Shown: one piece after another, positions 21,159 to 27,385 of the stretch
Layout: every line of letters starts with the position of its first letter
How positions within the stretch are numbered: position 1 is the first letter of the stretch
DNA from: Gammaproteobacteria bacterium
Lineage (GTDB): Bacteria; Pseudomonadota; Gammaproteobacteria; SZUA-140
Assembly (NCBI GenBank): GCA_020847075.1
Contig: JADLCS010000011.1
Coordinates: 1 to 48,648 of the forward strand
DNA length: 48,648 bases
Direction of reading: 5' to 3'
The notes under the pieces: generated by a model
What the model was told of the DNA's origin: nothing
Databases searched by the model: none
What the model saw: only the letters and a program-made list of their open reading frames with translations
Position numbers and translations under genes: made by a program

Positions 21159-21176
21159 CCAATGCGGGTAAATAGT

Positions 21177-21237
21177 AAATAGGGGACAGACCACGGTTTT
21201 CTACCTTAAATAGGGGACAGACCACGGTTTTCTACCT
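21177..21237 (+). repeat. Two direct copies of a 30-bp GGGGACAGACCACGG unit
   Basis: The unit AAATAGGGGACAGACCACGG plus TTTTCTACCT occurs at 21177-21206 and 21208-21237 with no difference. It is the same version of the GGGGACAGA superfamily that flanks the RAYT gene near 26 kb. It occupies much of the 154-base spacer ahead of metH; no cobalamin riboswitch features are present there. Confidence 0.92.
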
Positions 21238-21312: not shown

Positions 21313-25106
<3,794 letters not shown>

Positions 25107-25107
<1 letters not shown>

Positions 25108-25131
25108 AATAGGGGACAGACCACGGTTTTC
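25107..25131 (+). repeat. GGGGACAGACCACGG repeat unit overlapping the metH stop
   Basis: AAATAGGGGACAGACCACGG followed by TTTTC begins at the last base of the metH stop codon. It is identical in core to the pair ahead of metH, so metH is bracketed by same-orientation copies. Confidence 0.9.
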
Positions 25132-25156
25132 CAGCAGCGGCCATCAGCAGTCTGCG

Positions 25157-25266
25157 CACGCCCACTCGGAGTCGCAGTACTTCGTGCTCGGCCGCATCGA
25201 CCAGGAACAGCCTGTGTGCCGCGGAGACGTGGCGGGAGCCGAACCTGAGTTACGACCCGGAGGATC
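25157..25266 (+). pseudogene. Diverged partial copy of the metH 3' end
   Basis: CGCCCACTCGGAGTCGCAGT and the following 35 bases match metH from 24968 with few changes; after a deletion of about 33 bases the match resumes and runs to CGACCCGGAGGAT, the last codons of metH. Roughly one base in ten differs. The copy lies immediately after the real metH, between two oppositely oriented repeat units (25107-25131 and 25356-25380), and cannot encode a domain on its own. Confidence 0.85.
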
Positions 25267-25355
25267 GTTCCCGGAAACTCCCGCCGGAAAATTCCTGGAA
25301 GCGGGTGATTCCCGGAATGCCCGGGAGGCCGGCGAAGGCACGCGGAAAACCGGTT

Positions 25356-25380
25356 GAAACCGTGGTCTGTCCCCGGTTTT
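25356..25380 (-). repeat. GGGGACAGACCACGG repeat unit, reverse orientation
   Basis: GAAACCGTGGTCTGTCCCCG plus GTTTT, the reverse complement of the unit after metH. It lies 14 bases before the start codon of the DUF488 gene, so that gene's ribosome site directly abuts a repeat. Confidence 0.9.
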
Positions 25381-25394
25381 CGGAGGGTGTTTTC

Positions 25395-25967
25395 ATGAAC
25401 GCGCAGTCCCTGCCGCAGGAGGCGCACTGGCCGAGCGGCGCGATCTTCACCGTCGGGCACTCGACCCTGCCGATCGAGAGCTTCGTCTCCCTGCTGAAGG
25501 TCTATGGCATCGAGCGGCTGGCGGATATCCGCACGGTGCCGCGCTCGCGTCACAACCCGCAATTCAATGCCGACGCACTGGCGGGCAGTCTCGCCGCGGA
25601 GCGCATCGAATATATCCCCATGCCGGCGCTCGGGGGGCTGCGGCGGGCGCGCAAGGATTCACCCAATACCGGTTGGCGCAACGCGAGCTTCAGGGGCTAT
25701 GCCGATTACATGCAGGGCGCGGAATTCCTCGACGCCCTGGAGGCGCTCATCCGCGCGCGCCGCGAAGGGCGCGTCGCGATCATGTGCGCCGAGGCCGTGC
25801 CGTGGCGCTGCCACCGTTCGCTGGTGGCCGACGCGCTGAGCGTGCGCGGCGTGCCCGTGGTCGAGATCTTGTCGGAAAGCCAGTACCGGATGCACCGACT
25901 CACCCCGTTCGCGCGCGTCGACGGCACCTCGATCACCTACCCCCCCGATCAAGCGTCCCTCTTCTAA
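25395..25967 (+). CDS. DUF488-family protein
   Basis: 190 residues with the family signatures TVGHST (near 20), DIRTVPRSR followed by PQF, a glycine turn ALGGLRR, GYADYM and MCAEAVPWRCHRSLVADAL. The C-rich segment and fold are of a small cytoplasmic protein whose biochemical role is not established. ATG 25395 has GGAGGGTG at a good distance. It is flanked on both sides by GGGGACAGACCACGG repeats (25356-25380 and 25968-25990), so it may have moved with them. Confidence 0.88.
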   Translation: MNAQSLPQEAHWPSGAIFTVGHSTLPIESFVSLLKVYGIERLADIRTVPRSRHNPQFNADALAGSLAAERIEYIPMPALGGLRRARKDSPNTGWRNASFRGYADYMQGAEFLDALEALIRARREGRVAIMCAEAVPWRCHRSLVADALSVRGVPVVEILSESQYRMHRLTPFARVDGTSITYPPDQASLF

Positions 25968-25990
25968 AAACTGGGGACAGACCACGGTTT
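25968..25990 (+). repeat. GGGGACAGACCACGG repeat unit after DUF488
   Basis: AAACTGGGGACAGACCACGG followed by TTT, directly after the DUF488 stop codon. It forms an inverted pair with the unit at 26061-26085, separated by 70 bases in which I see no gene. Confidence 0.88.
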
Positions 25991-26060
25991 CCGCTATCCA
26001 TCCAGAGCGGGTCGGTCAGTATGATCCCATGCCGAGAGGTTCGGGCGACGTTGCAGGGGT

Positions 26061-26085
26061 GAAACCGTGGTCTGTCCCCGGTTTT
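26061..26085 (-). repeat. Repeat unit flanking the RAYT gene, left side
   Basis: GAAACCGTGGTCTGTCCCCG plus GTTTT. An identical 25-base copy in the same orientation lies at 26829-26853 on the other side of the transposase gene, so the pair frames a 793-base unit. Confidence 0.92.
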
Positions 26086-26129
26086 GTCGGTTAGAATGAA
26101 GGCGTCTCGGAATAGGACAAGGAGGTCCC

Positions 26130-26822
26130 ATGCCGCGTCGCGCTCGTATCGCCGTGCCGGGCATTCCCTGGCATATCATCCAGCGAGGCAACAATCGCTC
26201 TGCGTGTTTCTATACGGATGGGGATCGCCGCTGTTACCTGGGCGTTCTCCGAGAGCAGGCGGAGAAACATGGCTGCGCGATCTATGCCTATGTGCTGATG
26301 ACCAACCATGTCCACCTGTTGCTGACCCCTGCGTGGGAAGACAGCGCCGGCCTGCTGATGAAACATCTGGGTCAGCGGTATGTGCAGTATGTCAACCGTA
26401 CCTATCATCGTAGCGGCACGCTGTGGGAAGGACGTTTTCGCTCCTGCCTGGCGCGCGACCCGAAATACGTGCTGGGCTGTTACCGGTATATCGAACTGAA
26501 TCCCGTGCGCGCCTCCCTGGTGGGGCGCCCGGAGGAATATCGCTGGTCCAGTTACCGCGCGAATGCGGAAGGCGAGCGTGACCACGTGGTCACGCCGCAC
26601 CAGGATTACCTGCGGCTCGGCGATTCGGACGAAGGCCGCCGCGAGCACTACCGGGATTTGTTCAGGGCGCGTCTCGATCCGGAGGTCGTGGCCCACATAC
26701 GGCGGGCGACGAACGGAAATTACGTGCTCGGACCGGAGGGGTTTCAGGAGGAGATCGGCCGCATGCTCCGGCGGCGGGTGATTCCGGGCAAGTCCGGGCG
26801 ACCGGTGAAGGCGGGCGGCTGA
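26130..26822 (+). CDS. REP-associated tyrosine transposase (RAYT, Y1/HUH family)
   Basis: A 230-residue single-stranded-DNA transposase related to IS200/IS605 TnpA. Typical features are WHIIQRGNNRSACF near the start, the HUH pair His60-Val-His62 in TNHVHLLL, GTLWEGRFRSCL, and the catalytic tyrosine region CYRYIELNPVRASL (Tyr118 or Tyr120). AAGGAGG precedes the ATG. Family members act on REP palindromes and are usually single-copy. The gene is framed by identical GGGGACAGACCACGG-family repeats at 26061-26085 and 26829-26853. All motifs are intact, so it may be active. Confidence 0.93.
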   Translation: MPRRARIAVPGIPWHIIQRGNNRSACFYTDGDRRCYLGVLREQAEKHGCAIYAYVLMTNHVHLLLTPAWEDSAGLLMKHLGQRYVQYVNRTYHRSGTLWEGRFRSCLARDPKYVLGCYRYIELNPVRASLVGRPEEYRWSSYRANAEGERDHVVTPHQDYLRLGDSDEGRREHYRDLFRARLDPEVVAHIRRATNGNYVLGPEGFQEEIGRMLRRRVIPGKSGRPVKAGG

Positions 26823-27385
26823 CCGGCTGAAACCGTGGTCTGTCCCCGGTTTTCCGCGGCCGGCGCGAGCTTGATCATCGTCTGCTGGGCCATGGTGCCG
26901 TTGGCGATGACGATCTCGCGCCGGTCGTCCGTGCGCAGCACTGTATAGCCGAGCGAGATGCTTTCGACCACGCCGATTTCGTGACCGCTGCCGGTGGGGG
27001 CCTGGATCTGGATGCGGTCGCCGCGGCGGAACGGTTTGTAGAGGACCAGACTGATGCCGGCGACGAGATTGCCGAGCGTGGTCTGGGCCGCGAAGCCGAC
27101 GATGATCGACATCAGGCTCACGCCGGCCAGCAGCGTGTTCCCCAGTTTGTGCAGCGGCGGCACCAGGTGGGCGTAGAGGGCGAGCAGCAGCAGCCACAGC
27201 ACCAGGATGGTCAGGCGGCTGAGGAAGGCGAGTGTGATCTCGTCGATGCGCTCGGACTGGTCATGGCGCAATGCCGCGGCCAGTAGCCGCCGGACGATGC
27301 CGGACAGGATCGCCCCGATCACCACGAGAACGCCGGCCAGCAGCAGTGCGCCGGCGATCTGGCCTGGATCGAGCCATTTCAGCAT
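26744..27385 (-). pseudogene. MscS-family channel gene truncated at the RAYT repeat
   Basis: Two to three N-terminal membrane segments (LLLAGVLVVIGAIL, LTILVLWLLLLALYAHLV) lead into the MscS core: LLAGVSLMSIIVGFAAQTTLGNLVAG, the pore helix, and the beta domain (FRRGDRIQI, VVESISLGYTVLRTDDRREIVIANGTM). Family members continue for 80 or more residues into the alpha/beta cytoplasmic cage. Here MIKLAPAAE is followed at about 26854 by translated repeat (NRGQTTVS) and then by antisense of the RAYT 3' end, stopping at 26744. The open frame is 213 residues, but only about 177 are native. The missing 3' part was not found beyond the RAYT. Confidence 0.75.
26829..26853 (-). repeat. Repeat unit flanking the RAYT gene, right side
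   Basis: GAAACCGTGGTCTGTCCCCG plus GTTTT, identical to 26061-26085. It begins 6 bases after the RAYT stop and marks exactly where the native reading frame of the mscS-like gene ends. Confidence 0.92.

Follow-up and report, generated by a model that had tools for sequence, protein, structure and literature searches.

Tandem flank duplications outside the terminal inverted repeats of a lineage-amplified TIRYT element in a gammaproteobacterium

Results

A RAYT gene and its repeat units in the window

The window analyzed here is the whole 48,648-nucleotide stretch of contig JADLCS010000011.1, from a gammaproteobacterium of the SZUA-140 lineage. At 26130–26822 on the plus strand it carries an intact open reading frame for a 230-residue RAYT of TIRYT type, a Y1 HUH single-strand transposase by Pfam, NCBIfam, alignment and predicted fold. 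The Pfam Y1_Tnp model matched at E = 1.8e-10 and the NCBIfam REP_Tyr_transpos model at 70 bits, which is under its cut-off of 80. The HUH histidines (H60 and H62) and Y120 are invariant in a 37-member alignment, and the predicted model (pLDDT 90) has E. coli TnpA_REP as its top fold match (4er8, E = 1.1e-7), giving a Y1 HUH, RAYT-related tyrosine transposase of the kind that defines TIRYT/TIRtron elements. The host genome encodes this single RAYT of the clade plus two more distant RAYTs on contig C43.

An 18-nt core, GGGGACAGACCACGGTTT, occurs in seven exact copies between 21182 and 26847, four on the plus strand (21182, 21213, 25112 and 25973) and three on the minus strand (25357, 26062 and 26830), compared with 0.01 matches expected by chance in the window even when three mismatches are allowed. 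Three units share the identical 25-mer GAAACCGTGGTCTGTCCCCGGTTTT (25356–25380, 26061–26085 and 26829–26853). A preliminary description of this DNA had reported identical 25-base units flanking an intact RAYT; the identity and the open gene were confirmed, but both units have the same orientation and the inverted partner lies 69 nt further out. Of the five additional sites at which it placed the same sequence, 25356 holds the full 25-mer, whereas the units at 21177, 21208, 25107 and 25968 have the core in common and differ outside it.

The minus-strand unit at 26829–26853, a few nucleotides past the stop codon, has the position and orientation of the right unit in related loci and represents the right terminal inverted repeat (TIR) of the RAYT element. 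A mechanosensitive-channel-like open reading frame (26744–27385, minus strand) reads through this TIR into RAYT antisense (ENRGQTTVSAG), and the end of that gene has apparently given way to the RAYT element. The right end fits; the left end is rearranged: the unit found where the left end normally lies relative to the start codon (26061–26085) is inverted, and a plus-strand unit (25967–25991) lies about 140 nt upstream. Together these two make up a MITE/REPIN-like inverted pair of 119 bp (25967–26085) immediately before the gene. Judging from its matches to a pair on contig C15 (79% identity over 118 bp; L108:1935–2049) and to contig C92 (77% over 70 bp; L117), this pair is a member of a dispersed family.

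Further upstream, a plus-strand unit recognized by its sequence and core match adjoins the metH stop codon (25106–25130), followed by a partial duplicate of the metH 3′ end (25158–25265, plus strand; repeats of 87–94%) and a decayed RAYT 3′ end, RVIPGMPGRPAKARG (25288–25355, plus strand; 83–84% identity to 26774–26854). The minus-strand unit at 25356–25380 is the right TIR of this decayed copy, as shown by 86 nt that repeat the RAYT 3′ end and its TIR at 83% identity. The whole forms a TIR-bounded segment of 274 bp (25107–25386) in which the metH piece is joined to what is left of the RAYT, as though the element had picked up host DNA. A DUF488-domain open reading frame sits between two units (25305–25967); its longest frame begins upstream and translates through the TIR at 25356. 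Part of the crowding of units in the window reflects the decayed RAYT end and TIR within 25107–25386, and the two units at 21182 and 21213 are explained by a tandem duplication of two identical 31-nt copies (21176–21237, plus strand). Directly outside the TIR at 21182, GTAAATA is present twice with a period of 7 (21168–21181, plus strand), the same sequence as in locus L010.

The units are terminal inverted repeats of a TIRYT element

Scanning a single genome for each species, we obtained 71 related RAYT loci from gammaproteobacteria, betaproteobacteria and Desulfobacterota, 56 of which were used for end mapping. Even with some contigs stopping before the flank, the core was found in plus orientation at most 170 nt upstream of the RAYT start in 46 of the 56 (usually 45–75 nt) and inverted at most 250 nt downstream of the stop in 38. 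This arrangement identifies the units as TIRs, with the consensus GGGGACAGACCAC(G)(N)TT; the motif GGGGACAG, near-invariant in 84 ends, fits GGGGWSAS.

The same organization, a tyrosine transposase gene with flanking TIRs that carry GGGGWSAS, is given for TIRYT/TIRtron elements by Di Nocera et al. (2013, PMC3733652), and these elements were later assigned mainly to TnpA_Y1 subclass 2.1 (Quentin et al. 2018, PMC6006769), which corresponds to RAYT group 1. We consider it almost certain that the locus is a TIRYT element, and its motif together with the literature placement of TIRYTs would put it in the RAYT group 1 type. As in published TIRYTs, the gene is flanked by TIRs at similar distances and genomic TIR copies are single, dimeric or clustered. 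Unlike them, the present element shows a species-specific expansion to 57 units as well as tandem duplications of the flank and TIR start, which the available text of PMC3733652 does not mention. The kind of element is already known, and the duplications outside its TIRs are the new part.

With TnpA_Y1 subclass 2.1 and RAYT group 1 (Quentin et al. 2018; Bertels et al. 2017) the system shares a Y1 HUH core, a C-terminal extension and the absence of GTAG REPs. That subclass has a C-terminal HTH (Bac_DnaA_C, HTH_23 or HTH_28), whereas the extension here has three predicted helices (residues 167–213) and gave no match in a Pfam HTH search. REPIN/REPtron systems of RAYT groups 2 and 3 (E. coli, Stenotrophomonas and Pseudomonas) likewise couple a single RAYT to short ends arranged as inverted pairs, but theirs are GTAG hairpins and ours are TIRs. 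No GTAG-tagged REP hairpin was found at units in the window, at pairs in the genome or at the ends of relatives, and the GTGG of the bottom strand lies within the TIR, flanked by AAACC and TCTGTCCCC, rather than at the foot of a hairpin of the published type. IS200/IS605 elements (IS608 and ISDra2) have the same HUH-Y1 fold, in contrast to which the present system is TIR-bounded, with many non-autonomous pairs and few gene copies. We also considered a hairpin within the single unit (conserved 13-nt loop, variable AAACC/GGTTT stem) and rejected it, as outer and inner bases lacked clean covariation across species (outer TA was seen together with inner GA, GT and GG).

Recent amplification in the host lineage

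Across the host assembly (2.51 Mb in 101 contigs, about 90% complete) we identified 57 units with up to two mismatches, compared with 0 for a reversed control. These correspond to about 35 elements, most of which are inverted pairs of 39–107 bp. Exact cores numbered 48 in the host genome and 1 in a same-genus genome, with almost none in the family; on this distribution the expansion is lineage-specific and recent. Within the class, a 14-nt core was found in 52 of 369 genomes, with most copies in the host (47), followed by 32, 23 and 20. All four of the unit-richest genomes carry the RAYT clade at 59–100% identity (59–68% in the other three). More broadly, the clade was present at 59% identity or higher in 9 of 17 genomes with at least three units versus 0 of 18 tested genomes without units, and in one genome that lacks units but has a 66% RAYT the TIR is a variant, GGGGACAGACCCC. 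Pseudohalioglobus lutimaris (L065) is one species in which the family is found. The amplification was probably driven by RAYT, although the host gene, with its abnormal left end, may not be the copy responsible.

Elements are clustered in the genome, with 15 neighbors within 6 kb compared with 2.7 expected (maximum of 10 in 5,000 simulations). Equally dense clusters of four elements each were found on contigs that lack a copy of the RAYT gene described here (C4:38.0–39.9 kb and C73:13.2–15.2 kb), and two of the three densest clusters are on such contigs, which means that clusters do not point to this gene in particular. The C73 cluster (C73:13191–15204, L115) consists of four very short pairs (47 bp with an 11-nt loop) in 2 kb and is denser than the one around RAYT.

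These results refine several claims of the preliminary description. The pairing of RAYT with a repeat family of its own in REPIN-like inverted pairs is seen genome-wide, and the expected co-occurrence of repeats and RAYT clade holds in the genome counts above. Its picture of mostly single-armed units applies within the window but not to the genome as a whole; the excess near RAYT is real but is equaled on contigs without a copy of the gene; and the recent activity it proposed is evident at the level of the lineage, but not as crowding centered on RAYT.

The outer flanks of inverted pairs mirror each other, with 4.05 nt matching versus 1.90 nt when partners are exchanged (all pairs) and 4.71 versus 3.35 nt within the host genome (P about 0.001). 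Mirroring spans 6–10 nt, and the flanks differ from pair to pair in the host and in other genomes. Copying across a hairpin and palindromic target sites are both possible origins.

Phage or plasmid carriage was considered and set aside: viral contigs contained no relatives of RAYT, a phage search returned one weak match, plasmid relatives were all below 60% identity and motif matches in viral contigs behaved as chance. In G139 (L471) and its relatives, the unit occurs inside or beside a larger repeat of ~350 bp, which is present in dozens of copies in one genus.

Tandem duplications directly outside the TIRs

Many TIRs are preceded by a tandem copy of their own flank (T) and a piece of the TIR, giving the arrangement T-(TIR start)-T-TIR, which we term stutter and of which the doubled GTAAATA at 21168–21181 is a short example. 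For each unit we measured the longest perfect tandem match that stops at the TIR edge and called runs of at least 6 nt positive. Stutter was detected at 21.3% of 225 units in a first set and was replicated at 17.1% of 111 fresh units that had been fetched regardless of stutter. Controls gave lower rates: 1.3–1.8% for positions drawn at random from these loci, about 2% when the inner side of the units was scored instead, 2% at chance motif matches in viral contigs and 0.8% for shuffled flanks. Pooled, 70 of 336 units (21%) were positive compared with 230 of 13,432 random positions (1.7%; Fisher's P = 2.6e-49, which serves as a guide only because some units share a genome and not all are independent). 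Counted by locus, with a few loci overlapping, 52 of 179 had stutter, and 39 arrays contained at least three copies of T, counting both TIR families described here. The second of these, GGGGTCAGAGAACAATT, is associated with a RAYT about 50% identical to ours and showed stutter at 22% of 68 units versus 1.2%.

Other structures behaved differently. Generic hairpins in the same loci were positive in 2.4% of 166 cases, near the random level, and none of 83 feet of E. coli REPs stuttered (0%), in contrast to the TIRYT ends. Among the classes tested, stutter is therefore restricted to TIRYT ends. Runs of 4–5 nt showed no excess at TIR edges, indicating that T is truly 6 nt or longer. Searches for orthologous sites yielded no clean before-and-after pair, and same-genus empty-site searches for G139 and G341 turned up nothing beyond a repeat family and a fragment of a truncated IS. 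The literature searched, with incomplete coverage, held nothing specific on tandem flank-plus-TIR duplications or on the motif.

Duplications end at preferred positions inside the TIR

The duplicated unit consists of 6–9 nt of flank and the first n nucleotides of the TIR. Among 22 unambiguous arrays, n was 1 (six arrays), 2 (four), 3 (three), 7 (four), 0 (two) and 6, 12 or 13 (one each); the values 1, 2, 3 and 7 thus account for 17 of 22 (P = 3e-6 if n were uniform over 0–13). The same two preferred lengths emerged from 147 partial ends of the first family, where n peaks at 1–3 and then at 7: of the 32 partial ends with n = 4–11, 16 had exactly 7, with 0–8 at each other position. In the second TIR family both n = 7 and n = 8 occur, the latter twice, and n = 4 was also seen among duplicates. 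The far boundary, on the other hand, lies 6–9 nt from the TIR regardless of n and follows no dinucleotide or other sequence rule. Microhomology at the join was 0–1 nt in 42 of 50 perfect duplications. At least the first TIR base is included in 67 of 70 duplicated units, ten of the units have exactly seven TIR bases, and arrays contain truncated TIR starts of several lengths (for example, L061, L098, L297 and L368).

The bottom strand of the TIR has the sequence GTGGTC|TGTC|C|C|C, with GTGG just before the candidate cut sites, so that n = 1–3 corresponds to C|C and n = 7 to C|T. For TnpA_REP enzymes the published cleavage site is C|T, which shifted to C|C in one enzyme given a GTGG guide (PMC8266576). 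Since we noticed this match after the distribution of n, it provides a hypothesis with a good prior rather than a blind test.

Discussion

How the repeats associated with RAYTs spread has, to our knowledge, been an open question with respect to the transposition steps since their discovery, and the TIRYT group is almost unstudied. Purified RAYTs cut and join single strands. The account we favor combines the observed pairing of TIRs with RAYT, the lineage-specific amplification and the scar with its two preferred lengths: the scattered units are TIRYT ends and non-autonomous derivatives (inverted TIR pairs of 39–107 bp) recently amplified in this lineage, and stutter would be produced by RAYT through nicking, extension and rejoining. 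Taken as a whole, mechanism included, we hold this account to be somewhat better than an even bet.

In this mechanism, RAYT would nick the strand 5′-GTGGTC|TGTC|C|C|C-, which points outward into the flank and is the GTGGTCTGTCCCC strand, at C|C (1–3 nt inside the end) or at C|T (7 nt inside), leaving a 5′-phosphotyrosine and a 3′-OH. The 3′-OH would then be extended over the remaining TIR and 6–9 nt of flank and rejoined to the phosphotyrosine. Each round would leave a tandem copy of 6–9 nt of flank plus the first n nucleotides of the TIR, and repeated rounds would build arrays. We propose this route tentatively as regards the enzyme, the strand and the order of steps, and with similar reserve suggest that stutter arrays may be genomic fossils of a RAYT cycle of nicking, short extension and rejoining. 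The C|C and C|T rule is not absolute, as n = 0, 4, 6, 8, 12 and 13 also occur; n = 1–3 alone could arise from any process acting at the junction; and the constant position of the far boundary is not predicted by plain extension of fixed length.

An alternative that we regard as unlikely, though the strongest of those considered, is that the stutter of an otherwise ordinary TIRYT and its repeat family arises without the transposase, by DNA polymerase slippage at the base of the hairpins that inverted TIRs form. Inverted TIR pairs do form strong hairpins, slippage is a source of short tandem duplications and some values of n fall outside 1–3 and 7. The near-background rate at generic hairpins in the same loci and the absence of stutter from E. 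coli REP feet speak against this explanation, the 0–1 nt of microhomology at most joins is little for slippage to work with and nothing in it predicts a peak at exactly n = 7. Successive insertions into a single target, each imprecisely lost, with arrays as footprints of target plus truncated TIR, would account for the truncated TIR starts of several lengths, but it requires a target duplication, and the two flanks of an element usually differ and are not direct repeats; we consider it a good deal less probable than slippage.

Little credence is due to the conventional REP/REPIN system with local spread around RAYT that the preliminary description envisaged, which we place slightly below repeated insertion. 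A RAYT, inverted pairs and a local cluster are indeed present, but the units it took for REP palindromes are GGGGWSAS-type TIRs of a TIRYT without a GTAG hairpin, and clusters of the same density occur away from the gene. Least probable by far is a preference of the element for targets that already held short tandem repeats. Stutter flanks are A/T-rich (AATA and AACC), which would favor it, yet shuffling the flanks reduced the signal to background and arrays containing GGGGACA contradict the idea. Nearly all duplicates include the first TIR base, and ten have exactly seven TIR bases, indicating that the duplication took in the TIR and not only its flank.

The stutter scar is statistically solid, favors certain lengths within the TIR and keeps a fixed distance on the outer side; it names candidate cleavage sites and an expected product. 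If the RAYT mechanism is correct, stutter would amount to a reaction product of the enzyme preserved in natural genomes and would support 3′-OH-primed copying as a route by which repeats spread. If slippage is responsible instead, TIRYT elements would still create a mutational hotspot. The result also sets TIR-type repeats apart from REPs.

Other TIR types are present in the host as well. An inverted pair of ~51 bp of a sister type, GGGGACAGACCCCGATTA, is located at 2937–2987 of the window, and more units of the variant GGGGACAGACCCC occur on contigs C19, C43, C46, C51, C52 and C76.
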